This document shows, in pieces, positions 2,692 to 23,505 of a stretch of 23,505 nt of DNA; the first letter of the stretch is position 1; every line of letters begins with the position of its first letter. The translations under genes were made by a program, and so were the position numbers. Source of the stretch: a virus; the IMG/VR virus record IMGVR_UViG_3300009071_000076, positions 1 through 23,505 of that record. One strand, written 5' to 3'. The notes under the pieces were generated by a model that had not been told where the DNA came from, searched no databases, and was given only the letters and a program-made list of their open reading frames with translations.

Positions 2692-2791
2692 CTTCATCCT
2701 GTTCATAGATAAATTTATGTTCCTTATGTTCGTATTTTCTAAAACGAGATAAGAAAAATCTCACCCTGTAAATAAATTTCTTAATTTTCAT
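2684..2791 (-). CDS. 35-aa micro-ORF, basic N-terminus and acidic C-terminus
   Basis: A 35-codon frame starts at ATG 2791, overlapping the SGNH hydrolase stop by 11 nt. It ends at 2684, overlapping the glycosyltransferase start by 8 nt. The product is strongly basic and aromatic at first (MKIKKFIYRVRFFLSRFRKY) and ends in an acidic tail (YEQDEDE). The only ribosome-binding candidate is a weak AAGAGA-like stretch. The frame stays open further upstream, but that part lies inside the SGNH gene and is not plausible. It bridges two real genes that would otherwise be 89 nt apart in a genome without other gaps of that size, which supports real translation, perhaps as a coupling leader. I recognise no family. 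Confidence 0.5.
   Translation of the reverse strand: MKIKKFIYRVRFFLSRFRKYEHKEHKFIYEQDEDE
2697..2700 (-). promoter_or_regulatory. Shine-Dalgarno AGGA deciding the glycosyltransferase start
   Basis: AGGA on the minus strand lies 5 nt upstream of the ATG at 2691. The two earlier in-frame ATGs (2706 and 2697) have only AT-rich sequence upstream, so this site favours 2691. Confidence 0.5.
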
Positions 2792-3623: not shown

Positions 3624-4926
3624 ACTTCTCCATAAATCTAGTTGCATCACGGGGTGAGTCAACCATTGGTTCACCCTTAATATTTAGTGATGTATTCAAA
3701 AGCATCGGACAACCTGTTGCATCGTACCACTCTTCTAGAATGGGACGAATGACAGACTTGCAGTTCTTCTTTACAACCTGTACTCTCGCAGTTCCATCAA
3801 CGTGAGTGACAGACTTGTAATCGTGTTTTGCGGTGGCAACAAACTGCATGTATTCGTTCATTGGTCCTTCGAAGTATTCGTCCGCATACTCCTCTAGGAT
3901 TGCTGGTGCGAAAGGACGAAATCTCTGTCGTCTCTTAATATCATTTACTGTGTCTTTGATATCATATCTTGGGTCACCTAGTAAAGAACGATTACCCAAG
4001 GCTCTAGGTCCAAACTCTGCTCGACCATGTGCAATGCCACATACTCTGTTCTTCACAAGTTCTTGAATAACACCATGAACCCATATTGGACGGTCAATGT
4101 CAGTTCCAAGATACGGACCTTCCCATTGCAACTTCTTTTTCTGTACAAGTGATGCAGCACCAAGTGCAGAACCAGCATCACCCGGCGATGGCATAATCCA
4201 TATGTTCTTGCCTTGTATCTTACTGTTTGCGACACAGTTCAACGCACACCCACCCATGAGAATGATATTCTTTTTGGGACACATATCAACTAACTCTAGA
4301 AGTTTTCTCTCGTATAGAGCTTGTACAGATGCAGCAAGGTCTTCTGGTCTTGCGTCTTTCCAGACATTACCAACCCCACGATGATTGTTCATCAACAGAA
4401 GGGGTTCTAAGTCATACAAAGGTTCACCAAACGCAGCCATACCCATCGTGATATACTCATCCTCGTTGGGTTTTAAACCGATACGTTGTGTGATTGCAGA
4501 GTACAGAAGTCCTAGTGAGTATGGATACTTCCAAGACTTCACCTTCTTCATGTTATCCCAAATAGAAACAGTGTCCCATTCACCGATTGCATCCACAACA
4601 ATAATGTTGCAGTCATCGAATGGTGCAGTATAATACCCCGCCGCAGCATGGGACTCATGGTGACGAAAACTCACATCATACTTGAGACGAGGTTTCTTCC
4701 ACTTCTGTCCGGCATAGAGTCGTCTTAGATTTTTGGAAAATGGTTTCTCATAGTATGCAACTACTGCGTCACGATTATCTCTTATCTTTGACAGTTGATA
4801 CCAGTGAAGGTATTTGTCACCCTTTTTTCTACTGTGTCTCTCTGCATGAGATGCAAAAACAATCTTATTATCTTCTAGGACACAAATAGCAGCATCATGA
4901 AAACCTTCTGATATACCTATGATCAT
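3604..4926 (-). CDS. Carbamoyltransferase, NodU/CmcH/TobZ family
   Basis: This 440-aa enzyme family transfers a carbamoyl group from carbamoyl phosphate, via carbamoyl-AMP, to a hydroxyl group. The Kae1-like N-terminal half has GISEGFHDAA (4-13) and HHESHAAAGYY (89-99). H89 and H93, D112 in DAIGEWD and D250 in SPGDAGSALGAA fit the four metal ligands of the family. The C-terminal half carries HGRAEFGPRALGNRSLLGDPR (300-320), RFRPFAPAI (335-343), THVDGTARVQ (374-383) and NTSLNIKGEP (411-420). The protein is shorter than typical bacterial members (about 550-600 aa) and stops a few residues after MEKYGVQVF, without the usual final hydrophobic strand. The ATG overlaps the upstream stop by 4 nt. 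Known substrates include Nod factors, antibiotics and, in some phages, hydroxymethylcytosine; the substrate here is unknown. Confidence 0.93.
   Translation of the reverse strand: MIIGISEGFHDAAICVLEDNKIVFASHAERHSRKKGDKYLHWYQLSKIRDNRDAVVAYYEKPFSKNLRRLYAGQKWKKPRLKYDVSFRHHESHAAAGYYTAPFDDCNIIVVDAIGEWDTVSIWDNMKKVKSWKYPYSLGLLYSAITQRIGLKPNEDEYITMGMAAFGEPLYDLEPLLLMNNHRGVGNVWKDARPEDLAASVQALYERKLLELVDMCPKKNIILMGGCALNCVANSKIQGKNIWIMPSPGDAGSALGAASLVQKKKLQWEGPYLGTDIDRPIWVHGVIQELVKNRVCGIAHGRAEFGPRALGNRSLLGDPRYDIKDTVNDIKRRQRFRPFAPAILEEYADEYFEGPMNEYMQFVATAKHDYKSVTHVDGTARVQVVKKNCKSVIRPILEEWYDATGCPMLLNTSLNIKGEPMVDSPRDATRFMEKYGVQVF
3625..3631 (-). promoter_or_regulatory. Shine-Dalgarno GGAGAAG for the SGNH hydrolase
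   Basis: GGAGAAG immediately precedes the ATG at 3623, inside the 3' end of the carbamoyltransferase gene. It argues for this start rather than the in-frame ATG at 3674. Confidence 0.55.
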
Positions 4927-5483
4927 GTAAAGGGAACGAATACTCCTGTGATGTTACCCTCATCATCTTTATGAATCTCTGTATTTTCATTTCTAAAAAC
5001 TTGATAAAGTGCAAGAATTTCAATTGGACTACTTGCTTTTCTGATAGCAGTCTTTGCATTCTTTGACCTTTCAGATGTGTCAGAATCCTTAACTTCATCT
5101 TTTTCGAAAATACTAAGTTTTAATGAGAACAATCTCTCTTTGTCTTCTGCACTCTCAAAATCAAAATTACTAAAGAACCTAAAGACTTCTGAATTATTTT
5201 CTATTGGGTCACTACCAACATATACACCAGAACGTTCTGCATAACGATCAAATGCATCCTTAAATTCCTGACGAACAATATCATTTGCAGCCTTAGTGCG
5301 AAGTTCAATATCCTCATAAGATGTATCACCAAGAAGAGCCATAAACTGTTCATCTTCTTCGTCTACCTTAAGGTAGTGTTCACGATAGATGTTCATATCA
5401 TCTTTCCAGAGAATTTTTACTGTATCTAACTCTGAATTTGTGTAAGTAACATCAGCAATTTTGTCTGTCCAAAAATATGCCAT
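4923..5483 (-). CDS. Conserved-looking acidic protein of unknown function
   Basis: A 186-aa, highly charged, Asp/Glu-rich soluble protein with no signal peptide or membrane segment. The N-terminus (MAYFWTDKIADVTYTNSEL) leads into a short beta-rich part, VKILWKDDMNIYREHYLKV (about 23-41). A charged helical part follows (EEDEQFMAL to YAERSGVY, about 42-108), and the C-terminal segment has ASSPIEILALYQVFRN (about 150-165). AAGGAA lies 8 nt upstream of the ATG. It sits between a fibre-like gene 11 nt upstream and the carbamoyltransferase, with a 4-nt overlap. It could be a virion or assembly protein closing the structural block or the first member of the accessory cassette. I recognise no family. 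Confidence 0.8.
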   Translation of the reverse strand: MAYFWTDKIADVTYTNSELDTVKILWKDDMNIYREHYLKVDEEDEQFMALLGDTSYEDIELRTKAANDIVRQEFKDAFDRYAERSGVYVGSDPIENNSEVFRFFSNFDFESAEDKERLFSLKLSIFEKDEVKDSDTSERSKNAKTAIRKASSPIEILALYQVFRNENTEIHKDDEGNITGVFVPFT

Positions 5484-5494
5484 TTTAGTATTCC

Positions 5495-6457
5495 TTATAC
5501 CTGTGTAATCTTAAAAGTGTATGTTGAGATAGTCTGCGCTGACCCATTAGGAAATTCCTGTGCTCGATAATCATCGAGTCCAACCTGTAGAGTTTGGTAG
5601 TTACCAGAACCATCAAGTCTTGTGTCAACCATAGCAGTACCTCTAGAGTTACCACTTCCATTAATATTATATGATAATTTATTTCCTGCGGTATCTTCTG
5701 CTGCATAGTGACGAATATCATTCTTTAGAATTGCATTAAAAGAACTTGTATCAGAGGTCAAGTCAACCTGATTTAAGTTACCACTTGTGTCTACAAGAAG
5801 AAGTGCCTGTGATGGGAATGCTCTTGCATCACTACGTCTCTGTAAATAATAACTTGTAATAGTAGTAGGTTGGTCAAGTGTTTCTGGAATACCAGCAGCA
5901 GTATACAAAGTTGTATCTGCTCGTGTATCAAGAAAGATTGGGGTGTTTGAACCAGATACTTCTGTGTAGTTTGAATCTGATGCAGAGGTAGATATTGTAT
6001 ACGTTCCATTGGTAGATGCACTCTCACTAGCAGATACTATTCCCGTTAGAGTTGCATAGATAAAGGTATCAACATAATCTGCGGCAGACATTGCACGAAT
6101 ATCATTACCATCATAGTATGCAGGGAATGCAACGTTGTTTGTATCAGCAGTTGCACTAAGTGCAGTATTATATGTTGGACCTGTAACCTTGTCGTAGTTG
6201 ACAGTCACAGTTGAGGGTTCTGCTGTTGTTGCCTCATTAGCAAATGCAGATGCTTGACCAGTTATTGCTGCACCAGCTTGAAGTCTGGTGTCTGCCATTG
6301 TTGGAGATAAAGTACCACTAGAACCAACGACAGTAACAGTAACGGATGGTGCTGTACCATATAGGTATGCAATATATGTTTTCCACTCATTGATTTGAGT
6401 GGCATTCATTTCAACAACGTCTGTCCCATCATAATATATTGGTGTTCTTACAGTCAT
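5495..6457 (-). CDS. Virion structural / fibre-like protein, 320 aa
   Basis: A Ser/Thr/Ala/Gly-rich, beta-type 320-aa protein that is probably part of the virion. It has an internal duplication: IYYDGTDVVEMNA (7-19) and AYYDGNDIRAMSA (113-125) are near copies, each followed by a short helix ending in Tyr-Ala. A DTR motif recurs three times in similar surroundings: TMADTRLQAG (53-62), IFLDTRADTT (174-183) and AMVDTRLDGS (275-284). This suggests two to three copies of one structural module. The start overlaps the preceding stop in a TAATG (1 nt). Low-complexity composition and position among fibre-like genes support a tail-fibre or baseplate-decoration role. No receptor-binding domain, chaperone domain or protease is recognisable. 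Confidence 0.75.
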   Translation of the reverse strand: MTVRTPIYYDGTDVVEMNATQINEWKTYIAYLYGTAPSVTVTVVGSSGTLSPTMADTRLQAGAAITGQASAFANEATTAEPSTVTVNYDKVTGPTYNTALSATADTNNVAFPAYYDGNDIRAMSAADYVDTFIYATLTGIVSASESASTNGTYTISTSASDSNYTEVSGSNTPIFLDTRADTTLYTAAGIPETLDQPTTITSYYLQRRSDARAFPSQALLLVDTSGNLNQVDLTSDTSSFNAILKNDIRHYAAEDTAGNKLSYNINGSGNSRGTAMVDTRLDGSGNYQTLQVGLDDYRAQEFPNGSAQTISTYTFKITQV

Positions 6458-7585: not shown

Positions 7586-10500
7586 TTATGTTGCCAGTGC
7601 TAGAATTCTAAGGTCTTTAATCCTTGGTGGTCTTGCAGAGTTTGTTGCCCGCATTACAATCTTAATCTGGAAGGCAATGAACTCATCAAGTGGTGTACCG
7701 ATACCATCGTCTGTCACACCAGCAGTAAACTCATACTCGTTAAACTGATCTAGACCAAGTGATGGAGACACACTTACGTCTGGTCCACCAGAACCAGCAA
7801 CAGTTCCATCATCATTGAAGAATTTGAAATCTAGTTCATCAAAGTCATTTGCATCATCAGTTCTTAGAATTCTGTGTAGAACTTTAATGTCAGCAGTGTC
7901 TTCTCTGTTTGCATCAAAGATAACTCTGAGTGATGTTGCAGCATTTTCTAGTGTTGCACGTTTTGTTATATAGATTGCGTCATGATCATCGCCAGATGGG
8001 TCTGTCATTGGATCATAGATTGATGCTGGATATACATCAGAAGATGAATCAATCTCATTGATTCTGTTTGCAATAGCCAGAAATGTCATTCTCTTCAAAT
8101 CAATAACAGGAGATACCTGAGAATTTGTTGAAGAGAGTGTCAGGGGCATAATCAAAGACTTACTACCAGACATTTCGTTTGTCTCGTTAATCTCAGAGGC
8201 AACCATGTATGGGTCTTCATAGTAGTAGTTATCATTCAATGGAATTGTCTCTGCATTAGCAAGAGTAGACTGTGTGAATGAAGTTTGAGAACCACTGGCA
8301 CTTGTTGCAGTTGTAGGTCTAATCTTGGAAACAATATTACACTCTGGTGGAATGAGAGTTCCAATGACCGTACTATTCACATCATACATTGCATTTTCTG
8401 TTGCAGTCACAGAACTTCCTCCAAATGAGGAGTCACCACCACTTGCAACAACTGGTGTTGTTGAAAGAGAAATTGTATAGTAATCCGTAGATGGATTTGC
8501 AATTGCAGTGTGTGTCTTGTTGATTTCTGTAAATGGAACTTTGTGTAACATATACAGTTCTACCGTTGCACCATTTGAGTGTGCTGCAGCAGTTGTTCCA
8601 CCAACACCTCTTGTTGCACCAGTAATGTTGTTACCTGTGATTGAGGTATAAGAAATAATCTCATCATCAATCTTGATATAGTAGATACTGCCAACTGCCG
8701 TTGGTGCATACTTACCACTAGTATCATCAAAGTTTGTACCAGAAGTTAGTGTGATTGAACTTGCATCACTTGCAATAGCACCATTCAGTGTAGTCTCCGC
8801 ACCAGACACCACACCACTAATTGTCACATTATTTGATGTAGAGTGCATCTGGTTATCAAAGTGATTTACCTTTAGAGTGGTACTACTATTTGTCATCACT
8901 AATGGATTCTTACCAAGAGTAAGTGTTGGTACTGCATCATTAGTTAAGGTTACCAGGCCTGCAGCACTTGTATCAAATTGTGCGGCACGAAGAGTGAACT
9001 TTGCATCTTGTGTTGGAGAAGGAGCCCATGCACGATTATTATGTCCCTTAAAAAGAAGACCAATATGTGGTTGTTCCCCAACGAAATTACCATCTGAGTC
9101 TTCTTGACCCAAATCAGAAATCCACATAATATAATTTGGTGTGTTTGACATTACAACAAAGCAATACTCTGCCATAGACTGTAGATAAACTGGAGATTTA
9201 AATGTAAATGTTGTTGCAGTCTTACCATCATCAGAGGTATTAACCTGAGATGGTTGCAGTGTGACTCTACTAAATGGTAGAACTTTAGGGCCGGGGTAAC
9301 CATTTACAACATTACGAATTTCAACAGTAAGTGGGAGTGTATCATCTTTAGCAGAGAAGAACAAATCAATAGATGTTACAAATCTACCAGCATCTGTGTT
9401 ACTTCCACCCAAATCTGCGTTAAACTGATTATCTTCGTCCGCAATAATAAATGTTTGTGCAAGTGGATCACTGCCGCCGTCATTGCCGTCTCCGCCGTCG
9501 TCCCACAGCTGAGCTTCTCTTTCAATTTCTCTTGATTGACTAACATTTTCAACTGCAAGTCTACCATTACGAGTTGCAATAATAGTTTCTTGTCTTGTTT
9601 CAAGAATACCATTTGCGCTATAAATTGTCTGTGCAAAACTATCAGGATTTTTTTCATTGGTTGAACTTGCTGTCAATCTGAAAGTGATATCACCAGTTTG
9701 GAACTGAGGATTTCCAGAAACTTTTGGGTCTGGAATTGCAAATGTACCACCACATTGACTATCTGCTTTTACAATCAATGGACTTCCCGCAACGGGTGTT
9801 GAGTCTGTGGTTGAATCTGCATCTGGAGTAACATATGTAGTTACATCTCTATTATCAAAGAAGACATACAATCTTTGAAAAGGTTTAACACCATGTGCAT
9901 CAAATCGAATATTCCTTGCACGAACAACAGGAATTGCAACTCTAGAAATTGTTCTGAAACCCTGACTCTCTCTTTCAACTTGTTCTTCAACAAACGTTCT
10001 TGTTCCAGTTCTTCGTGAAGTGCCGGTTTCAAATGTGCGGAAAACTCCATCTTGGACGCGCATTCTGCCGGTCAGACCGAAACCAATTCGACCACTCCAT
10101 GTATCCTGCCACGCATTCCAAACAGTTCCTAACTGGTTTCTATTTGCATTTACAACAGCATCAAAGTTACCTTCGATATTAACTACAAGTTCTGGTGCAA
10201 CCTCTGTCTCAAACCAAGAGTCTTGGTCTGGGTCAAGTTCTATAATACCATTCCATGAAGCAGTAAGGAATGGTGTTACTCTTTCAACAGTCGTTGCAAA
10301 TGGATTTTCAGAAATAACCACCTCTGTATAAGGAAGTGTAAGTAGATCACCTGTCTTCTGATAACCAGCAGTAGTTCTTGCACTATCAGTTGTTGCCTGT
10401 TCAAGAAGATCAATACCCTTTGTCTTATGAACTGGACGTAACTCACCAATCTGAATGTCCATAGAATTTCTATAATCTGGATGTCGAGTATCACCAACAG

Positions 10501-13500
10501 AGTGTCCACGGAATGGGTCAACGATGAAACCAGACTTAAATCTGTTTAATCCATTTGCATCAGTGACCTCAAAAGACTGTGCATCTTTCTCAAGTAATGA
10601 AAGTGTGGTAATTCTTTCAACATTGGTAAGTCTTTGTTCAATTCTACCAATGTCACGCATTGTGAATCTTTGAGTTCTTTCTCTATCCACAGTTACATCT
10701 TGAGGTTTAAATGTAAACGCAGGTAGAAACATATCAACAAGTTTCATCGCATTATCAACAGGAGTTGGCAACTGAGGAAGTTCAGAAGATGCACCCTCTC
10801 TTACAACAACATTGCCTCTGTCATCCATAAAGATAGATGCACGTTTTGGTAGGTAATACTCAAGGTCTGACTGAACGTTAGAAGCTGGTTTACCAAAGTT
10901 AGAATATGATGAACCTGTGCCAGTGTAAACTCTAGAAGTAAAGTCGAAAGAGTTTCCAGTTATTTCATCTACGGTTGAAAGTGTTGCACTTGCACCAGCA
11001 ACATCAGCAACTCTTGGTCTAAAGTCATATGTTTCATATAGTGGGAACAGACCTGTGGGTTCTGGGTCGTCTGGGTCAACTCTTGATGCACTATAAGATG
11101 GAATGTCTTCGTAATCCATCTGGTTTGCAACATCAGTATATGAGTCAACTGTCATTACATCACCAGTACCATGTTCCATATAATCATAAACTACAAGTAG
11201 TCTACCCTGTGGAGAAGGAACACTTGGTTTTCTGACTAGACGAGAAATGTCATAGAAGTTATCACGTTGTCCTGTATCAAGTAGGAAGTCTGAAGTGATA
11301 ACAATATCACCCCCCGTCACTGCACTTACTGTTGCAGTTGCACCAGAGGATTCACCTGTAATAACATCACCTACAGCAAAGTCTGTTACTGATGTTAGGA
11401 CATAACTAAATGGTGATGAGGTGTCAATAATTCTGCCTGTTGCACCACTTGTTCCGCCTGTAATCTTTTCACCTCTTGTGAATGTACCAGTGATTGAACC
11501 TGTAGTTAGTTCTGGTGCAACAGCATCTGTTGATGTGTCTTCTGAGTCAAACACAGCAACAAGTTTAAATGCGTCTGCCCGCCCAAGAGAAATATCTCTA
11601 TCAGTTGGGCGTGTACCAAATGCATCAGTTGTGCCTGGTGTTACCTTTACCTGTTTCATCAACTGAACAGTTTTATTCTTTTGTGTAACAGAAGTCTTCG
11701 TTGTGGTTGCAAGAAGTTTTACTTTTGATGCATTGAAATCAGAGTCAGTAATTGTAATTGTACCTGTTCCAGTTCCAGTAATATTACCGTCAATACTTAC
11801 AATGTCACCAGTTGCGTGAGTAGAACCACTACCGATATTAAGAACAGATAGTGTATAATCAGCTTCTGTGAAACCATTGAATGTTTCGTTTGTACCAGCA
11901 GTAAATGATACCACACCAGATGCATTTGTTGTACCAACGAACTGTCTGCGAATGGTGTATTGTGTATCACTTGCGCCGCCGTTTGCAGTTGTCAAGTGAG
12001 TCTTTACAACTCTATGTGTTGGTTTGAATAGTGCAATATTCTTTTCTGCGTCTTTCAACTGGGCACGTTTACGAATAACGTTTGCGGTTGTAATTGCGTC
12101 AGTTGATGGTGCAGCAGTAAATGAGATTGCAGTTGAGGTAATAGCGTCAACAACTCTTTCTTCCGTTGCACCAGCAACACCAGTTGGAATTTCTAGAACG
12201 TCACCAACCTTAACTTCACTCGTATCATAACCAGATACACCAATGAGGTTATCTGTACCAGTTGTCTCTGTACGATATGTACCACTGAGTGTTAGAGTGT
12301 TACCTAGAACAAAGTCAGCAGTAAAGTCTTCATTAGCATCTGCATCATTCATAAAGATTTGTTTGAAATCTTGGAATGAGTATGTTGTGATTGATGAGAT
12401 TGTCAAGTCTGTGTTACCAGAGTTCTCAACAATACTATCTGTTTCAGATGAATCTGAAGCAGTAATCTTTTCACCTGAAGAGAATGTACCAATAACGTTT
12501 GTTAGATTAACGTTAGTTGTTGATGTGCCTTCACCAAATACAAGACCAGTTGCACCACTCGTCACACCTGTAACGAGAACACCATCAGTATGGTTTGTAG
12601 TGAGTGTTGGACTTGGTGTACCACTTAGAGTTAGAACTGTAAATGGTCTTAGGTCAAACAAGAACAACTTGTACTGTGAGGTTGTGTTAGAACCAGTTGC
12701 ACCCGCCGTTCCACTATGATAAGACATGGAACGAGAACGTCCCACACCAATTAGTGTTCCGTTTGCAGTACCACGAGATGAGTTCCGTGTATCATAGAAC
12801 TGACACTCTTTGAAAGGAGTTGCCTCACTGGTTACTTCAGAGATATCCGGTGAATTGTAAATGTTTGTAATGAGTGCATGGTTACCAGTATCAAAAACTG
12901 TAATGTCAGCATTCTTAGTTTCAAAATCACGAGCCTTATTGATGTCCTTGAATGATGGAGTATTTTTTAATATTTCATATCCATTAACATATGCTTTGCC
13001 GGGAGAAACCTTGATTGCAAGTAAATCTGAACTTGCAGTATTACCGTCATCTGTAGTTGCTCCAAGAGCAAATCTACCAGTATTCTCATTTACAGTTACG
13101 GACTCTTCAACCTTAAATTGAAATGGTTTAACAGTATAGTTACCAGACTCATCAAATGTGCGCCTTGCAAATTCCTGAGATAATACAGAATATTCTGTTT
13201 CTCTACCCATTGCAACCAAGGCGCCATTTTTGATTTGTGCAAGTTGAACAAAGTTTGCATTAGTTGCAGTTGTTTTCTTGGCAAGAGTAAGAGAAATCTG
13301 AAGACGATGAGCACCCTTTGCAGCAAAGTTTGAAGACCCCTGTGCATTGTCTAGAAGTGATGATTCATCCTCTGGAGTAACTAGTGTCTCTGTAATATCA
13401 AAACCAACAAATCCATTAAAATTGATATTATATGGATCAAGTGTAATTTGTTGATTACCAGAAGCAACAAAAAAACCTCTTATAAAATAAACACCGGCGC

Positions 13501-14083
13501 GAACATAGTAAGCAATACCTGTTCTAGATGCTGGTCCTGTTGCACTTGTTGCATCAGTAGAAGTTGCAGTAAAAGTAGTTGCTGATGCAACATCAACAGA
13601 GTAAGAGGTTGCGTCATGTTGAATGGCAATACTAGCAGTAATGTTTTCACCATCTGCAAATACAGCAGTGGTATTATCCGTTCCTGCTCTTTGATAATTA
13701 ACAAACAAAAGTGGTTGTTCTGTAGTGCTTCCTGCCTGAAAACCAATAACTTCTGCTTTAACACCAGTAGTTGCACCAGTGATAACAACTGGTGTATCTG
13801 CGTTATAATACTTTGATGGGTCTACGTTTTCTCCACCAAATTGTGTTGCAAGTTTTAGTGAATAATATCTCTCAGCACCAGACTGGCCAGGAACAACGGC
13901 AGCACCTTCTTTAAATACATGACTACCATGAGTCTCAATCTGATACTGCAATTGACTCTGTAACTGAGTAAGTTCTCTTGCCTGAACTGCAAAACCAGGC
14001 CGAAAGAGTGTGCGAACATAATTATTGTCCTCACTAAAGTCGTCGTAATAAGGTGCAGCGTTAAGATTTGTTTTTTGTGCCAT
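7586..14083 (-). CDS. Giant virion structural protein with DUF4815 domain, 2165 aa
   Basis: The N-terminus (AQKTNLNAAPYYDDFSED, then FRPGFAVQARELTQLQSQLQ) is the DUF4815 start seen in T4-like marine phages. Several GE-x-ITG-type modules follow, for example at 11331-11374, 11434-11474 and 12541-12572. A middle part has RFTMRDIGRIEQRLTNVE (about residue 1140) and DTRHPDYRNSMDI. Further on are the conserved RFDAHGVKPFQRLYVFFDN (about 1395) and YLQSMAEYCFVVMSNT (about 1640) segments. The C-terminus ends PPRIKDLRILALAT. It lies directly after gp8 with a 1-nt gap, so it is most likely a baseplate or tail-tip/fibre-anchor component. Which T4 protein it replaces is uncertain (gp9 and gp10 are both possible). 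The frame is uninterrupted over 6.5 kb. Confidence 0.92.
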   Translation of the reverse strand: MAQKTNLNAAPYYDDFSEDNNYVRTLFRPGFAVQARELTQLQSQLQYQIETHGSHVFKEGAAVVPGQSGAERYYSLKLATQFGGENVDPSKYYNADTPVVITGATTGVKAEVIGFQAGSTTEQPLLFVNYQRAGTDNTTAVFADGENITASIAIQHDATSYSVDVASATTFTATSTDATSATGPASRTGIAYYVRAGVYFIRGFFVASGNQQITLDPYNINFNGFVGFDITETLVTPEDESSLLDNAQGSSNFAAKGAHRLQISLTLAKKTTATNANFVQLAQIKNGALVAMGRETEYSVLSQEFARRTFDESGNYTVKPFQFKVEESVTVNENTGRFALGATTDDGNTASSDLLAIKVSPGKAYVNGYEILKNTPSFKDINKARDFETKNADITVFDTGNHALITNIYNSPDISEVTSEATPFKECQFYDTRNSSRGTANGTLIGVGRSRSMSYHSGTAGATGSNTTSQYKLFLFDLRPFTVLTLSGTPSPTLTTNHTDGVLVTGVTSGATGLVFGEGTSTTNVNLTNVIGTFSSGEKITASDSSETDSIVENSGNTDLTISSITTYSFQDFKQIFMNDADANEDFTADFVLGNTLTLSGTYRTETTGTDNLIGVSGYDTSEVKVGDVLEIPTGVAGATEERVVDAITSTAISFTAAPSTDAITTANVIRKRAQLKDAEKNIALFKPTHRVVKTHLTTANGGASDTQYTIRRQFVGTTNASGVVSFTAGTNETFNGFTEADYTLSVLNIGSGSTHATGDIVSIDGNITGTGTGTITITDSDFNASKVKLLATTTKTSVTQKNKTVQLMKQVKVTPGTTDAFGTRPTDRDISLGRADAFKLVAVFDSEDTSTDAVAPELTTGSITGTFTRGEKITGGTSGATGRIIDTSSPFSYVLTSVTDFAVGDVITGESSGATATVSAVTGGDIVITSDFLLDTGQRDNFYDISRLVRKPSVPSPQGRLLVVYDYMEHGTGDVMTVDSYTDVANQMDYEDIPSYSASRVDPDDPEPTGLFPLYETYDFRPRVADVAGASATLSTVDEITGNSFDFTSRVYTGTGSSYSNFGKPASNVQSDLEYYLPKRASIFMDDRGNVVVREGASSELPQLPTPVDNAMKLVDMFLPAFTFKPQDVTVDRERTQRFTMRDIGRIEQRLTNVERITTLSLLEKDAQSFEVTDANGLNRFKSGFIVDPFRGHSVGDTRHPDYRNSMDIQIGELRPVHKTKGIDLLEQATTDSARTTAGYQKTGDLLTLPYTEVVISENPFATTVERVTPFLTASWNGIIELDPDQDSWFETEVAPELVVNIEGNFDAVVNANRNQLGTVWNAWQDTWSGRIGFGLTGRMRVQDGVFRTFETGTSRRTGTRTFVEEQVERESQGFRTISRVAIPVVRARNIRFDAHGVKPFQRLYVFFDNRDVTTYVTPDADSTTDSTPVAGSPLIVKADSQCGGTFAIPDPKVSGNPQFQTGDITFRLTASSTNEKNPDSFAQTIYSANGILETRQETIIATRNGRLAVENVSQSREIEREAQLWDDGGDGNDGGSDPLAQTFIIADEDNQFNADLGGSNTDAGRFVTSIDLFFSAKDDTLPLTVEIRNVVNGYPGPKVLPFSRVTLQPSQVNTSDDGKTATTFTFKSPVYLQSMAEYCFVVMSNTPNYIMWISDLGQEDSDGNFVGEQPHIGLLFKGHNNRAWAPSPTQDAKFTLRAAQFDTSAAGLVTLTNDAVPTLTLGKNPLVMTNSSTTLKVNHFDNQMHSTSNNVTISGVVSGAETTLNGAIASDASSITLTSGTNFDDTSGKYAPTAVGSIYYIKIDDEIISYTSITGNNITGATRGVGGTTAAAHSNGATVELYMLHKVPFTEINKTHTAIANPSTDYYTISLSTTPVVASGGDSSFGGSSVTATENAMYDVNSTVIGTLIPPECNIVSKIRPTTATSASGSQTSFTQSTLANAETIPLNDNYYYEDPYMVASEINETNEMSGSKSLIMPLTLSSTNSQVSPVIDLKRMTFLAIANRINEIDSSSDVYPASIYDPMTDPSGDDHDAIYITKRATLENAATSLRVIFDANREDTADIKVLHRILRTDDANDFDELDFKFFNDDGTVAGSGGPDVSVSPSLGLDQFNEYEFTAGVTDDGIGTPLDEFIAFQIKIVMRATNSARPPRIKDLRILALAT

Positions 14084-14084
14084 A

Positions 14085-15584
14085 TTAGAATTCCACTATG
14101 ATTTTGATGTCTTCGGTTTGATCGGTAGCTCGAGAGATTGGTGACCTGTTCTCATTATATATAATGTCTCCACTGTCGGGTTGTAACTCTGGGTTTGCAT
14201 AACCATTAGTAAAGGTAATCGTGTTACCACCAGAGAGTGTTACTGCACTATCTGCGGCAGCATCTGGTGTTCCTGTTGCAGATGAGTCTGCACCAGTTAC
14301 AGTATTTGCACCTGAGAATGCAACAAGTCCACCGTTAGTAGAGACTGTACCAAAGTCAGCGAAACGTTCCTGTTGGTAATATAGAATACTCAAATCTGAA
14401 TCCCATTCCACAACTTTACCAACTGCACCTGTCGTTGCCTGTGTAATCTTTTCATCTGCCGTAAACGTTCCACTCAAACTTGTGAGTTTAAGTGCATATG
14501 TCTGACGAATGGTGCTATCTGTTGCAACTGTTGATGTTCCAAAGTTTGTTGGGTCAACTGCGATTGCAATGTTACGGAAATCGTTACCTGTGAGAAGGTC
14601 ATCACGTTCTGCACCAATAAAGAGTGTGTTCAACATAACATAGTGACCGCCAAGTTGGTCAATTGCATTTGAACCATGTCCACCTTTTGGACTAATTACA
14701 ACACGAACGGAACCACCAGAACCACCGATTGCTGATGCACTTGTCAAGGCTGAGTCTGAGAATGTAAATCCAGAACCAAGATTAACTGTTCCAAATGTAT
14801 ATCCAGAACCACCAGCAAAAACAGTTGTGTCTGTTCCGTCTGTTAGACCGAATGCGTTAAGAACACCATCTGAGTCAACAACAATTTTTACGATTGCACC
14901 AGAAGCAGTTCCTTGGTTTGCACCATCACCATAGACTGCGGCAAAATATGTTCCTTGAGTATAACCAGAACCGCCAGTGACAACAAGTGATTCGATTTTA
15001 CCATCAGTTGCAGCAGAAGAAACAGTTGAGTCTGTACGAACAGGTATAAAGTCTGTTGTTAGAAACTTAACTTGGTCAGATGCACTGATGGTGTACATAT
15101 ACTTAAGAACATATCCACCAGAAGCAAAGGGTGTATTTGCTTCTGAAGATGGTTCAGTACCAGAATATGCAGTACCACCACCATTATCCAACACCAAATA
15201 CACACGATTCTCTGAAGTTCTAAAGAAGAAAGTTGAGTCATAAAGGTTTGTTGCACCGGATGTAGAAGTATTTGACGCACTAACAGTATCATCGTACATG
15301 TCATATGTTGTTGCGTTTGCCCAATCTCTACGAGGGATAACATACTGAACATCGGTCGTTGCAACATTCTTACCAGCAATAGTCTGATCCCAAACATAGA
15401 ACTCACTGGAAACATCATCAACAGGAGTGGGCGGTGCAGAGTCCGTTCCACCACTGGTTACAGCGGTGAATGGAGTTGCCTTACCGATTAACATATAGTA
15501 TGTTGACTTTGCAGCTTCGGAGAATGACTCATAAAACTGGTCTGCGTTATGTTGTCTAAATTTTTGTGTGATAATTGCAGTCAT
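14085..15584 (-). CDS. gp8: Baseplate wedge subunit gp8
   Basis: The opening TAIITQKFRQHNADQFYESFSEA, together with EFYVWDQTIAGK and VIPRRDWANATTYDMYDD, is characteristic of the gp8 family of T4-like marine phages. The C-terminus NENRSPISRATDQTEDIKI matches as well. In T4, gp8 is a wedge protein that links gp7 and gp10 in the baseplate. This version has 499 aa against 334 in T4. The additional middle part holds Gly-rich repeats (VTGGSGYTQGTYF, FAGGSGYTFGTVNLGSG) and one GE-x-ITG-like module, DEKITQATTGAVGKV, at about 14410-14455. GAGGAA sits 6-7 nt before the ATG and a late-promoter sequence overlaps the preceding stop. The family assignment is secure; the insert's role is unknown. Confidence 0.9.
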   Translation of the reverse strand: MTAIITQKFRQHNADQFYESFSEAAKSTYYMLIGKATPFTAVTSGGTDSAPPTPVDDVSSEFYVWDQTIAGKNVATTDVQYVIPRRDWANATTYDMYDDTVSASNTSTSGATNLYDSTFFFRTSENRVYLVLDNGGGTAYSGTEPSSEANTPFASGGYVLKYMYTISASDQVKFLTTDFIPVRTDSTVSSAATDGKIESLVVTGGSGYTQGTYFAAVYGDGANQGTASGAIVKIVVDSDGVLNAFGLTDGTDTTVFAGGSGYTFGTVNLGSGFTFSDSALTSASAIGGSGGSVRVVISPKGGHGSNAIDQLGGHYVMLNTLFIGAERDDLLTGNDFRNIAIAVDPTNFGTSTVATDSTIRQTYALKLTSLSGTFTADEKITQATTGAVGKVVEWDSDLSILYYQQERFADFGTVSTNGGLVAFSGANTVTGADSSATGTPDAAADSAVTLSGGNTITFTNGYANPELQPDSGDIIYNENRSPISRATDQTEDIKIIVEF

Positions 15585-16924: not shown

Positions 16925-19900
16925 TTATACAACGGTCTTATCAAATGTGAACGCAGAAGTATCAAAAGTTTCTGTAGTTGCAGAGAACCCTCTAAAGTCC
17001 GCATCACCATAGATATTACTCAAGAATGAGGTTTCTGTTCCAGATTCTAGAAGGACATTATTTCCACCAATATTCACACCAGCCAGATCGGTAGTTGCAG
17101 TTTCAAACTGAATTTGAGTATCACCTTGGTCAATTTCTGGTTCATAATAAAGTCTACCAATTTGTGCAACATACACTTCAGCAGAACGAGCAAATCTTGG
17201 AACCGCAGATTGACTAGAATAAACATCTGGTGGTGTTTGCCCAACTGAAGTCTCATCCTCAAGTGCAATAACTTGACTCTCCAAAGAAAGTTTACCACCA
17301 ATTGTTAAACCAGTGCCTTGTTCAAGAAGTATTTCATCACCATGTGTTGTTGATACTGTCGTACCATCCTCTTGCATAATGGAGCCGGGAGAACTATCCT
17401 CTAATAAAATGTTAACAGTGTCGAACTGGTCAGTTATATTTAACTTATCTACAACACTCAAATCACTTAAGTTAAATCCTTCCGTTACTCGACTGTAATC
17501 GTTAACAGAAATGCCTTGTCCAATATTAACATCTTCAACAGTTTCCAAAAGTATTCTGTCACCAACATCAGCAGTACCAATGTCTGCCGTATTATCAAGA
17601 AGAAGGTCACCAATCATACCGTTAACACCAAGAGCCACACCGGATTCAATAGCAAGTGTATCACCAAGAATACTCTCTTGAGTTACATTACTAATAAACG
17701 ATATTCCATTAGCACTATCGCCGGTGCGGTTTGGTTTTACATCAATTTTAACTTCAGTTTTCTTAATAACTCTAAGGTCGTAGGTATCTGTGGAATAAGT
17801 TTCCTTTTCCTCTTGGACAATTATTCCACCATCTTCTCCATGTAAGAAACCGCCAACAGAATCTTCCATAGCAATATGGTATGCTGGATTCTCAAATACT
17901 TGATGTCTTCTTCTTTTGACCTCATCAAAGAGAACCTCAAATGTAGATGCAAGAATTGGACTGAAGGTATTTGTATCTGCAACGTAATCATCTCCAAGTG
18001 TTGCACCAGTTGGTGTTGAGATACCAGCATACACAGCAGTAGATGATTTAACCTTACTGAATACATTAAATCCAGATGGGTGTACAGATTTCTTTAGTGG
18101 GTTAAGATATGAACCAGAACCAGATGCAGTCTGAACTTCGTATGAGAACTGCTGATAATATAGAGAGTCTTGAATACGAATAAGGTCTTCACCAATAAGA
18201 CTTTCAATGTCTGAATATCTACCAAACCTATCAGCCGTCATACCAACGTTAAATGTTCCTTTTGCAATGTCTGCATTTACAATTGTTGCACTTGCAGAAG
18301 CAGTTGTGATTGAAACATCTTTACCAGAGAAATCAATCTCATCTTCATACACAAGATAATCACCAGCATCAAATGCACCTGTTGGGTCTGTACCATCAAG
18401 AACGATATTGTCAAAAGTTCCGTCCTCACTTACAATTCTTTCGATATCAGAAAAAGATGCAGTTAGAACTTGTGTTCCTGCCTCAAATGCACGAACTGTT
18501 CCTGCGTGACTTGTCAGAACATCATCAACACTAAAGGTTCCACTTATATCCTTAACGACAAAGTTTGCACGGAACTCTGTGGCTGGAGCTACCTGATAAT
18601 CAAAACCAACCGTCCTTACATTCACATCATCAACGCGACCAATGTCGCTTGTTGTTGCAAGAAGTTTTGCACCACTACCAAATTTTGATGTAATCGTGAT
18701 AGTAGGAAGTTTTGAATACCCAAATCCACCATCTTGTAAAAATACTTTCGTGATGTCACCAGAACCAGACTCTAGAATAAATGTGTCATCATCTCTCTTG
18801 GTTGTATCAACCCTCTCTTCAAATATACTAACTTCTGCTTCAATCCTATCACCAAGGTCTGCTTCTGTGTTTATCCCACCAACTTCTACTGCGGCATTAC
18901 CAGACTCAAAGAATAGTTCTCCATCATCCTCTTGTACGATATTGAAATACTCAACTTCTCTATTAGTTGCACCCTCTTGAAGAAGTGTCTCATCATCTTC
19001 AAGAAGAATAGAACCATGAATAACTGCGACACGGGCAACAGCAGACTGAACAAGTCCTGTTTCTAATGTATTATCAGTAAATGTTAGAATATCACCAATC
19101 TCATAGTTTGTTCCCGAATCATCAACCTCTACACCACTAACAGAACCAGTTTCAACTTCGCCCACAACAGCATCAACATCACCACTACCAATTGCTGTAG
19201 ATGTTTCAACATCAATCACATCATTAGTAGAATACAGAATGCCGTCATTGGTAACTGTCTCTGATGTTACGATTTGTCTAATTCTATATTTGTAAACAAC
19301 ATCAATTACGCCAGAGACACCATGTATTTCTTCGTCTTTTGTAAATGTACCCGTTACGTTACCAACAGTAATCTCTACAACTGTGGATGCATCTGATGGA
19401 TCAGAAAATGTTGTACAAGATTCAACTCTTGCAGTTGCACCAGATGTTTGTCCAGTAATAGTTTGTCCTGCTAGTTCACCATGAACTGGAGTTCCAATTG
19501 GACTAGCACGAAGAATAGTTGGTTTATCCCAATCACCGCCAGATACACGAAGCATTCTTGTGTTTGGATAAAAAATTTCTGCTTCTTCATCTAGAAGAAT
19601 GCGAATTAAAAGTTTTACACCTTCTTGCGTTCCCTTCCTACGATAAAGTTCACGAATATTTTTTGTGAGGTTTCTTTTATCCAATCCAGTTGCAACACTG
19701 CTTGGAATTGCATTCATGAATGATTTACGAAACTCTTCAAGGAAGTCATAGATAGTATTGTCAACATCTGCATATGCAAGAAGTTGTTGAATATTCTGTA
19801 CAGGACTTGCGCGATAACTTGTTACTGTGCCAGTTGCATCAGACGTTGCACCTGTAATTGTCTCACCAGTTACAAACTGTTGTTGCGATGTGATGAATAG

Positions 19901-20257
19901 TCTTGGTCTTGTATCGTTACCCAAGTCATCAACAAGAACCTCGGCAGTGGCTTTGGAAGTGGAACCAGTAATAGTTTCACCTACGATAAACTTACCTGTA
20001 GTACCAGTTCCTTTCTCAAGAACAATTCTGTTATCTTCTTCATCAAGAAGTCGAGTGGTTGTTGCAACCTCAATAAGTAGATTGTCAATTGTTGCAGAGA
20101 CGACAAGTTCACCCGACTCCAGATACTTGTAGTAACTTTGAAGAAAGGACGAGAATACAGGATGGTCATCTGCAACGAAGTCAGGGAGTTGACCATCAAT
20201 CTGTGTGCTGACCTTATTAATCAGGTCTGGTGAATATCTGCCGTCAAAAGGTGCCAT
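16925..20257 (-). CDS. Large baseplate/virion structural protein in the gp7 position, 1110 aa
   Basis: The N-terminus (APFDGRYSPDLINKVSTQID, then FSSFLQSYYKYLE) and the helical segment LDKRNLTKNIRELYRRKGTQ (192-211) leading to LLIRILLDEEAEIFYPN are typical of the large protein between gp6 and gp8 in marine T4-like phages. T4 gp7, the wedge initiator, has the same position and a similar length (1032 aa), so it may be the functional counterpart; I see no clear sequence proof. GE-x-ITG modules occur near residues 90-106, 128-145 and 262-278. Many LLE/LQE...G stretches (ILLEDDETLLQEG, IMQEDGTT, ILLEQGTG, NNVLLESGTE) form a second repeat family. The start overlaps the gp6 stop in a TAATG. No enzymatic motif is visible. 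Confidence 0.88.
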   Translation of the reverse strand: MAPFDGRYSPDLINKVSTQIDGQLPDFVADDHPVFSSFLQSYYKYLESGELVVSATIDNLLIEVATTTRLLDEEDNRIVLEKGTGTTGKFIVGETITGSTSKATAEVLVDDLGNDTRPRLFITSQQQFVTGETITGATSDATGTVTSYRASPVQNIQQLLAYADVDNTIYDFLEEFRKSFMNAIPSSVATGLDKRNLTKNIRELYRRKGTQEGVKLLIRILLDEEAEIFYPNTRMLRVSGGDWDKPTILRASPIGTPVHGELAGQTITGQTSGATARVESCTTFSDPSDASTVVEITVGNVTGTFTKDEEIHGVSGVIDVVYKYRIRQIVTSETVTNDGILYSTNDVIDVETSTAIGSGDVDAVVGEVETGSVSGVEVDDSGTNYEIGDILTFTDNTLETGLVQSAVARVAVIHGSILLEDDETLLQEGATNREVEYFNIVQEDDGELFFESGNAAVEVGGINTEADLGDRIEAEVSIFEERVDTTKRDDDTFILESGSGDITKVFLQDGGFGYSKLPTITITSKFGSGAKLLATTSDIGRVDDVNVRTVGFDYQVAPATEFRANFVVKDISGTFSVDDVLTSHAGTVRAFEAGTQVLTASFSDIERIVSEDGTFDNIVLDGTDPTGAFDAGDYLVYEDEIDFSGKDVSITTASASATIVNADIAKGTFNVGMTADRFGRYSDIESLIGEDLIRIQDSLYYQQFSYEVQTASGSGSYLNPLKKSVHPSGFNVFSKVKSSTAVYAGISTPTGATLGDDYVADTNTFSPILASTFEVLFDEVKRRRHQVFENPAYHIAMEDSVGGFLHGEDGGIIVQEEKETYSTDTYDLRVIKKTEVKIDVKPNRTGDSANGISFISNVTQESILGDTLAIESGVALGVNGMIGDLLLDNTADIGTADVGDRILLETVEDVNIGQGISVNDYSRVTEGFNLSDLSVVDKLNITDQFDTVNILLEDSSPGSIMQEDGTTVSTTHGDEILLEQGTGLTIGGKLSLESQVIALEDETSVGQTPPDVYSSQSAVPRFARSAEVYVAQIGRLYYEPEIDQGDTQIQFETATTDLAGVNIGGNNVLLESGTETSFLSNIYGDADFRGFSATTETFDTSAFTFDKTVV
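19424..19990 (-). repeat. Dispersed GE-x-ITG-x-TSxAT modules in the 1110-aa protein
   Basis: Three copies are visible: GETITGSTSKATAEV (about 19981-19937), GETITGATSDATGTV (about 19867-19823) and GQTITGQTSGATARV (about 19465-19421). The same short beta-hairpin-like module occurs in gp8 and in the DUF4815 protein. Confidence 0.7.
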
Positions 20258-21132
20258 TAGTTATAGCTCGAAGGTGATGTATAACCAGAAGTGGTTGTGA
20301 ATGTAGTATTGCCAGAGTCATTACCTTCAGAAACAGTATCAATAGATGCAGTCACCGTAGTATTCACCAAATCAATCTCAAGTAACTGATTTCTCTTTGG
20401 AACAATATCAAGTGAATCAGGAATAACAGTAATACGAATTTGTGTAGAAGTTGCACCATCAACATTAGAAACACTATTAATAGATATTGGATTAATAGAT
20501 ATAACACCAGCATCGTAGTCAATTGTTCCTGCTGTAGAATCCAGATACGTTCTTACACCAGAAACAATAGAGTAAACGCGAATATTACCATTTCCATCGT
20601 CATCAAAGAAAAACTCAGTTACATTTTGTCCAACAATACCAAACCCTGTTGATGCAACGATACCACCACCACTAGAATTATGTCCAGAGTGTGGGTTGTA
20701 TAATTTATTATTAAAATACACCTTATAAGATTTTGACTCTGCTAAAGTTGGAATAATATATTTTGCCAAAGAGACATTTAATATGTTACCTGTAATTGAT
20801 GTATCTGTATCATCAATCAATCCTGTCAACTTAGAGTGTCTAAACAAACCATTAAATGTATTCAGATTATCTGTGTTATAATTTGTTATTGTATTACGGA
20901 CATTAGATTCAATGGTTGCATTACCCTTTGTGGTAGCACTTGGATTAAACTTGACATTTGACTGAAGTATAAGGAAGAGTGTTTCAGGGTCAACGATTAC
21001 AGGAGTAATTGAAGCAACTGTATATTGTTGTAAGTTTGTCTTTAAGGTTTCTTTTTGAGATTCAGTAAGATTTTCACCAGTAGTTGATTTAACACTGATA
21101 AACACTTTACCAAATTCTGGTGTAGAGGTCAC
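20257..21132 (-). CDS. gp6: Baseplate wedge subunit gp6, C-terminal part (after in-frame stop)
   Basis: This 291-aa frame begins at a GTG (TSTPEFGKVFISVKS) and is the direct in-frame continuation of gp6. The 48 codons upstream of it (21276-21133) also read as gp6 sequence: LNAPLDYASQGRAVTTEDYK, then LVRQLFAQTQAVAVFGG. They contain no stop and no ATG, GTG or TTG codon. So the real C-terminal part spans 21276-20257, and only the TAA at 21277-21279 separates it from the N-terminal part. No Shine-Dalgarno lies close to the GTG, so independent start here is doubtful. The C-terminal region of gp6 builds the dimer ring of the baseplate wedge, so losing it should be lethal unless the stop is read through. 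Confidence 0.7.
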   Translation of the reverse strand: MTSTPEFGKVFISVKSTTGENLTESQKETLKTNLQQYTVASITPVIVDPETLFLILQSNVKFNPSATTKGNATIESNVRNTITNYNTDNLNTFNGLFRHSKLTGLIDDTDTSITGNILNVSLAKYIIPTLAESKSYKVYFNNKLYNPHSGHNSSGGGIVASTGFGIVGQNVTEFFFDDDGNGNIRVYSIVSGVRTYLDSTAGTIDYDAGVISINPISINSVSNVDGATSTQIRITVIPDSLDIVPKRNQLLEIDLVNTTVTASIDTVSEGNDSGNTTFTTTSGYTSPSSYN

Positions 21133-21276
21133 ACCAATACTTGTATCGAAAGAACCAGACTCACCACCAAAGACAGCAACTGCCTGAGTCTGTGCAAAAA
21201 GTTGTCTTACGAGAGTCTTGTAATCCTCTGTTGTTACAGCCCTACCCTGTGAAGCATAATCTAATGGTGCATTGAG

Positions 21277-21279
21277 TTA
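21277..21279 (-). other. In-frame TAA interrupting gp6
   Basis: The context reads GAA TCA ATC TAA CTC AAT GCA CCA, that is ESI-stop-LNAP. Related gp6 proteins have, from memory, a basic residue at this point (SI-K/R-LNAP), so a single AAA-to-TAA change would explain it. The frame is open on both sides. Confidence 0.85.
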
Positions 21280-22164
21280 GATTGATTCAATCGACTCTGC
21301 TTCTGAACCTCCAGAAGAACTATCAATCGTTGTGACAATCACACTTGAAACTGTATCAATTGCACCAGCAGATGTAAATACTGAAGCACCGTTTCCGTCT
21401 TCCTTATTAGACACAACATACTGAAGAATTACAATGTTGTCATCTGACAATGCACTACCAAGAACACCGTCACCAAAGTATACCTCAAATTTACCAACCT
21501 CAACTTCTTGTAAAAAGTAAACATGACTTGTACCAGTAATCTGTGCAATATCTGTTGCGAGAGTATAAGTTGTTGTGGTAGAATCAGAAACAGAGTTTTG
21601 AACCTTAACTGTGAGAGTGCGAGTATCTACTCTATTATCATTGATAAGAAATCTCTGTTCAACATCTTGAGTATTTACAGTATATCTAGAAGTAACAAAT
21701 GTTCCCTCGTAAAGAACAAGGTTTGAGAACACAATACTGTTACCAATATTTGCCGCAGTTTTTTCTATTGGATTGATAAAGGTATATGCATCACCTTCAA
21801 TCGTTGTATTAAACACAGTTCCAGCATCCATCGTTGCAGTTGCGTTTGTGGTGTTCAATGCAACCTCTACAGTTGCAGTTGCGGCTCTTGCAGACTGTGG
21901 AACATATCCAAGTGTCTTTGCATGTGATACAACAGATGAACGCAGAGAAGAACTGTCAAGGAACATTTCGTTTGCAAGCATATTCGCATTGAACGCAAGA
22001 TAGTGAGTATTGTATGCTAGAGTGTCAAGAAGAATATTCATACCAGAACCTTCAAAGTCGTAATCAGTAAACTCTGTCTGTCCTTTAAGGAATATTTTTA
22101 GATTGTCTTTGATATCATCAAAGTCCAACTCTGTTACATTAAGTCGTCTTGGATTTGCGGCCAT
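21277..22164 (-). CDS. gp6: Baseplate wedge subunit gp6, N-terminal part (295 aa)
   Basis: The opening ANPRRLNVTELDFDDIKDNL, then YDFEGSGMNILLDTLAYNTHY and VVSHAKTLGYVPQSARAA, is the gp6 N-terminus of T4-like phages. The whole region 22164-20257 equals 635 codons plus the final stop, counting the internal TAA as one codon; T4 gp6 has 660 aa. gp6 forms the wedge ring that ties neighbouring baseplate wedges together. The frame ends prematurely at 21277 after GGSEAESIESI. The start overlaps the gp25 stop in a TAATG (1 nt), so translation should be coupled. A 295-aa product would lack more than half of the protein. Assignment is secure; the interpretation of the stop is open. Confidence 0.88.
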   Translation of the reverse strand: MAANPRRLNVTELDFDDIKDNLKIFLKGQTEFTDYDFEGSGMNILLDTLAYNTHYLAFNANMLANEMFLDSSSLRSSVVSHAKTLGYVPQSARAATATVEVALNTTNATATMDAGTVFNTTIEGDAYTFINPIEKTAANIGNSIVFSNLVLYEGTFVTSRYTVNTQDVEQRFLINDNRVDTRTLTVKVQNSVSDSTTTTYTLATDIAQITGTSHVYFLQEVEVGKFEVYFGDGVLGSALSDDNIVILQYVVSNKEDGNGASVFTSAGAIDTVSSVIVTTIDSSSGGSEAESIESI

Positions 22165-22619
22165 TATCGTAGTCTCTCTAATAGAACTGTGGTATCAACT
22201 AATTCTGTAGGAGCATTCTGTACATAGAACTCAACACTGATTTCATATGCATTTCGGTCCAAGTCAGGATTTGCCCTGACACCCACCAATCTTGCTCTTG
22301 GTTCAAAGTTCTCAATTACGTCTTCAACTTTCTGTGATAATACAAATGCAGTGATAGGACTCAATGGTTCGAATAGAAGTCCACGAATACCAGAACCTAT
22401 CTCTGGATGAAAAGGTTTCTCGTAGATGTTCGTAAGAATAAGATTTCTCACAGACCTCTTGATTGCCTGAATACCATTTACCTTTGAGATATCTTTTGAA
22501 GTATTTTTTTTACCAAAGAATAAGTCTAGGTCTTTGTATACCTGTGCATCCCTATCAAGGTTGATATTTTTGGACTGTGCATCAGGAAAAGCGGTATTTA
22601 GAGATGCTCCGTGAGCCAT
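22164..22619 (-). CDS. gp25: Baseplate wedge subunit gp25 (GPW/gp25 family)
   Basis: A 151-aa protein with the gp25/GpW signature RSVRNLILTNIYEKPFHPEI (residues 55-74), followed by GSGIRGLLFEPLSP (75-88) and the C-terminal strand RNAYEISVEFYV (122-133). In T4, gp25 (132 aa) sits at the inner baseplate, helps to attach gp6 and gp53, and primes sheath assembly. The N-terminal 45 residues, with SKNINLDRDAQVYKDLDLFF, are longer than in T4. An exact late promoter lies 18 nt upstream and AAAGGA precedes the ATG. It is the first gene of the baseplate transcript and is translationally coupled to gp6. Confidence 0.95.
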   Translation of the reverse strand: MAHGASLNTAFPDAQSKNINLDRDAQVYKDLDLFFGKKNTSKDISKVNGIQAIKRSVRNLILTNIYEKPFHPEIGSGIRGLLFEPLSPITAFVLSQKVEDVIENFEPRARLVGVRANPDLDRNAYEISVEFYVQNAPTELVDTTVLLERLR

Positions 22620-22637
22620 GAGTAATCCTTTTTATTC

Positions 22638-22645
22638 TATTTATA
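22638..22645 (-). promoter_or_regulatory. T4-type late promoter (TATAAATA) before gp25
   Basis: An exact TATAAATA on the minus strand lies in the 27-nt gap between the 90-aa gene and gp25, 18 nt upstream of the gp25 ATG. It would drive the gp25-gp6-gp7-position transcript late in infection. Confidence 0.75.
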
Positions 22646-22646
22646 C

Positions 22647-22919
22647 TTACACACTCGCAGTTTGTTTCATAATATACTTTTTAGGTGAACCCCATACGTC
22701 TTTCGCATTAACTCGAATGAATCTTTTGTTTGTTTCTTTGTCATTTGGGTTGGGAATAGTCAACATGACATTCTTACCCCTCAACCAAGCATCTCTTTTG
22801 TTAGCTGCCGCCTGCAATAGAGTCGTATCATTACGAAGTGCATTAAGTAGTTTTTTATTCACATTTGAACCCTCTCCCTTAGACACTTGTTGGGTTCTTT
22901 GTTTCTTTCTCTTAGCCAT
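22647..22919 (-). CDS. Small basic conserved phage protein, 90 aa
   Basis: A 90-aa protein with a strongly basic, Lys/Arg/Gln-rich N-terminus (MAKRKKQRTQQVSKGEGSN), a helical middle (NKKLLNALRNDTTLLQAAA) and a beta-rich C-terminus (KNVMLTIPNPNDKETNKRFI, RVNAKDVWGSPKKY). As I recall, proteins with this opening lie just before gp25 in several marine T4-like phages. Function is unknown; nucleic-acid binding or virion packing is conceivable from the charge. The ATG overlaps the Usg-like stop by 8 nt (ATGgcTAA), with GGAG 7 nt upstream. It ends just before the gp25 late promoter. Confidence 0.75.
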   Translation of the reverse strand: MAKRKKQRTQQVSKGEGSNVNKKLLNALRNDTTLLQAAANKRDAWLRGKNVMLTIPNPNDKETNKRFIRVNAKDVWGSPKKYIMKQTASV

Positions 22920-23148
22920 TAATAATCTCCTTCACTGGCCGGTATGATGTATCATACTCATTGCATAAAAAAACTTCTGATATAACCGCATCAATATTCT
23001 CATGCCAAAAATTTAAAAACTTATGTACTCTTGGATAGTCTGGTTTAACATCCTGCGTCTGCCATATGAACTCTTGCAGAATGTTATGATAATCAGGCAT
23101 CCAATAAATTATATTTAGTGTGACTATAGATTTTCTTTTTAGTATCAT
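22912..23148 (-). CDS. Usg-like protein, 78 aa
   Basis: The core TLNIIYWMPDYHNILQEFIW (10-29) and the DVKPDYPRVHKFLNFWHENI segment (33-52) match, from memory, the pattern of the Usg family found in alphaproteobacteria: LYxxPDH-x2-LLQ-x-F-x-WQ-x2-D-x2-P-x-FP-x3-FLxFW. Usg proteins are small and of unknown biochemical role. The bacterial proteins are of about the same size. It overlaps the upstream gene by 4 nt (ATGA) and the 90-aa gene by 8 nt, so it is a regular member of the operon rather than a stray insert. Whether it works in the virion or manipulates the host is unknown. The family call rests on motif recall only. Confidence 0.6.
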   Translation of the reverse strand: MILKRKSIVTLNIIYWMPDYHNILQEFIWQTQDVKPDYPRVHKFLNFWHENIDAVISEVFLCNEYDTSYRPVKEIING

Positions 23149-23505
23149 GTTGATGGGCCTGGGTCGTAATTCTCATTATACTCATACGTTATGATTGCAG
23201 CATAACCACCAAATACTTTGTTGAGTTTATCGCCATAATCGATAAATCTTCCGGGCCCAAATACGCTATCTTTTCTTACAGATTCGGGAAATCGTCCAAA
23301 ACATCGAAACGCGCCTTTTACATTGAGAATTTCATTATCAACAGCAACAATATTGCCGGGGTGATCTTCCAATAATGATCCCGGCATAGAAAATATCAAT
23401 TCTTTCCCATTAACTTTTACGTTTTGAGAACCTGTACCATTACCGGCGGTGTTTATCCACGCATACATATGTGGACCATAATAACTACGATAATGTGTAC
23501 CGATA
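23145..23505 (-). CDS. Hypothetical protein, 5' end beyond window (120 residues visible)
   Basis: An ATG occurs at 23468, but the frame remains open to the right edge and the residues there (IGTHYRSYYGPHMYAW) continue the style of the protein. There is also no Shine-Dalgarno before 23468, so the true start is probably outside the window. The visible part has a Gly/Asn-rich strand-turn region (WINTAGNGTGSQNVKVNGKE), a FGRFPESVRKDSVFGPGRFI segment, and a C-terminus (GGYAAIITYEYNENYDPGPS) that looks structural. It overlaps the Usg-like gene by 4 nt. I recognise no family. It lies upstream of gp25 in the same transcript direction and may be another virion or assembly protein. Confidence 0.7.
   Translation of the reverse strand, partial: IGTHYRSYYGPHMYAWINTAGNGTGSQNVKVNGKELIFSMPGSLLEDHPGNIVAVDNEILNVKGAFRCFGRFPESVRKDSVFGPGRFIDYGDKLNKVFGGYAAIITYEYNENYDPGPST

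Follow-up and report, generated by a model that had tools for sequence, protein, structure and literature searches.

The gp6 baseplate wedge gene of the IMG/VR contig IMGVR_UViG_3300009071_000076 is interrupted at codon 296 by a single-base, contig-private substitution that creates an in-frame TAA in an otherwise intact gene, and a consensus error of metagenome assembly is its most likely source. The window analyzed here is the whole 23,505-nucleotide stretch of this contig, and the virus that it represents is a marine T4-like myovirus, with Methylophilales phage Melnitz and Pelagibacter phage Mosig among its relatives. Of the contigs examined, this one alone contains the stop, and the rest of its gp6 is unchanged in comparison with the nearest relative. 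For its origin we infer an error rather than a real mutant: a one-base sequencing or assembly error would have turned a sense codon into TAA at codon 296, and the virus proper would carry an ordinary sense codon there and make one full-length gp6.

The gp6 gene and its internal stop codon

Translation of the minus strand from 20257 to 22164 gives 635 codons followed by a terminal TAA, and the sole internal stop is the TAA at codon 296 (21279-21277, minus strand). Its context, GAA TCA ATC TAA CTC AAT GCA, has no frameshift, which bears out the preliminary description of a gp6 split by a single in-frame TAA with a readthrough total of 635 amino acids. That description covered 21133-21300, which includes the stop and the stretch without start codons that follows it; the whole gene extends over 20257-22164. 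When read through, the protein matches the baseplate wedge profile phrog_219 over nearly its full length (positions 4-594 of 598, E 4.7e-177). The part up to and including the stop (21277-22164, minus strand; 295 amino acids) comprises the N-terminal helical domain and linker and accounts for profile positions 4-299, while the part past the stop (20257-21276, minus strand; 339 amino acids) comprises the C-terminal domains and accounts for positions 302-594. Pfam domains likewise fall on either side, with Gp6-like_1st, the helical domain, before the stop and Gp6_C-I and Gp6_C-III after it, so the earlier statement that both sides are gp6 in the same frame also stands.

The T4 gp6 chain 5hx2_D matches the window protein with an E-value of 1.2e-43. 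T4 gp6 (PDB 5hx2 and 5iv5; C-terminal part 3h2t) is homologous over most of its length and has the same two-part architecture, yet it is one 660-residue chain whereas the window copy has the internal stop at codon 296. The closest named phages, Methylophilales phage Melnitz and Pelagibacter phages Mosig and HTVC008M, have gp6 proteins with 49-53% identity over ~96% of the protein, and in contrast to the window each of them encodes gp6 as one uninterrupted gene. As sequenced, the contig copy is thus not an intact gp6 but a gp6 gene that contains a nonsense codon, and this nonsense codon is seen in IMGVR_UViG_3300009071_000076 only.

Inspection of the sequence past the stop agrees with the preliminary description of 48 codons without a start, followed by a GTG without a Shine-Dalgarno sequence. 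No ATG, GTG or TTG occurs in frame across these 48 codons, and the first in-frame start candidate is the GTG at 21132, which is preceded by GATACAAGTATTGGT, where no Shine-Dalgarno sequence is found. An ATG just past the stop lies in another frame, which closes after three codons.

The gene neighborhood is that of a baseplate wedge protein. The minus strand of the window holds a T4-like baseplate gene cluster in which the upstream neighbor of gp6 (22164-22619) matches the baseplate wedge families phrog_261 and phrog_43, and the gene at 14085-15584 matches the wedge family phrog_438; a similar gene order is annotated in Melnitz. The neighboring large genes look intact: for 14085-15584 and 7586-14083, Melnitz has frames that align over the entire length, and the gene calls tested beyond ~6.4 kb all have full-length relatives.

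Codon 296 in related gp6 genes

The nearest relative (L082, IMGVR_UViG_3300020175_000725) is another, independent IMG/VR contig, 4,395 bases long, that aligns with window positions 19048-23439 at 99.84% identity, with seven mismatched bases and no gaps. Across the 1,908 bases of gp6 it differs from the window only at 21279, the first base of codon 296, where it has AAA (lysine). The same AAA is found in the two relatives that come next, L002 (96.8%) and L003 (94%).

Alignment of gp6 homologues at the stop, which the preliminary description had proposed as a check, gives a sense codon in all 199 distinct contexts, mostly AAA. These contexts, each defined by 183 bases, come from 272 loci that span codon 296, and they encode lysine in 189, arginine in eight and glutamine in two cases, with no stop (AAA 167, AAG 22, AGA 4, CGA 3, CAA 2, AGG 1). 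The counts pool the fetched loci, some of which were retrieved by a pattern requiring AAA; the 129 contexts retrieved without using codon 296 have AAA in 99, AAG in 22, AGA in four, CAA in two, and CGA and AGG in one each, again with no stop. Together with the arginine aligned at this residue in 9f4a, the best-matching solved gp6 structure, these counts indicate that codon 296 specifies a conserved basic residue.

Searches for the stop elsewhere were negative. Two scans, one with each half of gp6, returned loci from ~49% to 99.8% identity without a stop at codon 296; the exact TAA context is absent from other IMG/VR contigs; and a degenerate ESI-stop-LNA pattern matched 28 contigs, none with a gp6 relative. 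Megablast against the phage collection gave no near match. In five loci (L154, L155, L200, L221 and L259), the stops that were flagged sit where the alignment finishes at the C-terminus (query 625-629), and we take them for natural gene ends. The comparison with L087 counted two further nonsense codons, which are probably gap artefacts, as tblastn shows no stop there. In a different gp6 homologue, L269 (IMGVR_UViG_3300046468_000563), an isolated in-frame TAG occurs at 350-352 of that locus, where five near-identical contigs encode glutamate; this is a genuine separate internal stop and a parallel to the TAA of the window, sporadic and contig-private, at a site unrelated to codon 296.

Substitution pattern between the window and its nearest relative

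Over 4,392 bases, five differences separate the window from L082, and none of the five is synonymous, each being an amino acid change or the stop. Besides 21279, the only base in the shared stretch where the window departs from L082 and from all other covering relatives is 20064 (minus strand), which changes an amino acid at codon 65 of the neighboring 1110-amino-acid gene. L082 is itself the odd one out at window positions 22756-22757 and, as a triplet, at 19261-19263, and these multi-base private differences look like consensus errors in L082.

Genuine relatives, in comparison, differ mostly at synonymous sites: between L082 and L003, these same genes have 133 synonymous and 60 amino-acid-changing codons. 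At this ratio, five non-synonymous events in a row have a chance of ~0.003 under ordinary selected divergence. The absence of synonymous changes between the window and L082 is therefore the pattern of consensus errors or of mutations yet unseen by selection, although by itself it cannot tell these two apart, and just two of the five changes are found in the window alone. A random substitution in gp6 creates a stop in ~3.5% of cases, so that a nonsense change would be unremarkable among a few errors. Against the error reading, the two window-private changes in the L082-shared stretch are a small sample for an error rate.

A possible real nonsense mutation

The main alternative is a real nonsense mutation in the sampled phages, either in defective genomes or in genomes that survive by complementation during co-infection. 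We consider this unlikely, but it is the one competing explanation that carries appreciable weight. Unselected real mutations would likewise be mostly non-synonymous or nonsense, and the lack of further gp6 decay (no other difference from L082 across the gene) is as compatible with a very young mutation as with an error. If the mutation were real, gp6 would end at residue 295 and, by analogy with T4, lose the half that joins the wedges. In T4, both gp6 domains build a continuous ring by which the wedges are joined (PMC3004832), and in the window the stop lies shortly upstream of the region aligned with the T4 C-terminal fragment (3h2t aligns from residue 306). By this analogy, loss of the gp6 C-terminal region should abolish baseplate assembly, and a phage without it should not form particles. 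The majority allele is what a consensus contig usually shows, and it should not carry a lethal change, and we rank an error above a real mutant for this reason; how strongly the two are weighted against each other is a judgement and not a measurement.

Improbable alternatives: readthrough, recoding and internal re-initiation

The preliminary description had left a choice between an erroneous or lethal one-base change from AAA to TAA and readthrough of the TAA, either by a suppressor tRNA or as a programmed event. The first part gains support from the AAA in most relatives and in the gp6 of L082, which is otherwise identical, while the second is not supported: the stop occurs in no relative examined, no other TAA is used as sense in the window, and no suppressor tRNA was found in the window or the loci scanned. 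Readthrough would yield full-length gp6 together with a shorter product, and the two fully conserved halves in one frame are what it would leave behind. With the stop seen in none of the 199 distinct relative contexts, however, programmed readthrough is very unlikely, and we give readthrough of either kind very little credence. A real TAA of very recent origin, tolerated through UAA suppression supplied by the host or by the unseen rest of the phage genome, is similarly improbable.

Stop codon usage in the window also speaks against recoding. TAA is the main terminator, ending 13 of the 19 gene calls (four end in TGA and two in TAG), and the search for other in-frame TAA codons that had been suggested found none: the TAA of gp6 is the only internal stop in 7,663 codons. 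Phages that recode stops (TAG to glutamine in code 15, or TGA) resemble the window in having in-frame stops inside structural genes, but they have many recoded stops, in several genes, and usually a matching suppressor tRNA, whereas the TAA of the window is isolated and the scans of the window and of the relatives' loci detected no such tRNA. Recoding of TAG and TGA, but not of TAA, was reported in a survey of jumbo phages and others (PMC13037316).

A suppressor tRNA was likewise sought, as proposed earlier. ARAGORN detected no tRNA in the window, which is a genome fragment, such that a suppressor may be encoded elsewhere, and no suppressor anticodon in the 305 fetched loci, with the complete Melnitz genome, split into three pieces, among them. 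An Rfam tRNA search of nine longer contigs from relatives had no tRNA hit. Melnitz does have a tRNA-Leu with anticodon taa, but it was rejected as a suppressor, as it reads UUA and not UAA. A real stop that is read through would make gp6 an essential virion protein with UAA readthrough, a case for which we find no support. More generally, when just one metagenomic contig has an isolated in-frame stop, it calls for comparison with near-identical contigs before recoding is proposed.

Least probable of all is the production of gp6 as a pair of proteins, of which the second would arise through internal re-initiation: the C-terminal half of T4 gp6 (residues 334-660, the crystallized fragment, a C-terminal dimer) does fold and crystallize on its own (PMC3004832) and aligns just past the stop, but the start-less 48 codons, the GTG without a Shine-Dalgarno sequence and the out-of-frame ATG speak against re-initiation, and the relatives encode gp6 as one protein, which excludes the suggestion that it is normally two.

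Other genes in the window

The 2165-amino-acid gene at 7586-14083 matches phrog_358, a family of unknown function, over its full length (E 0) and is conserved with a hypothetical gene in Melnitz. Unlike the baseplate genes, the tested gene calls at 651-6457 have no relative among the fetched loci, and this region may be a variable module or may lie outside the coverage of those loci. Within it, 3604-4926 has a strong match to phrog_1601, a Nol-like carbamoyltransferase (E 1.8e-86), and nearby 1978-2706 has a weak glycosyltransferase match.
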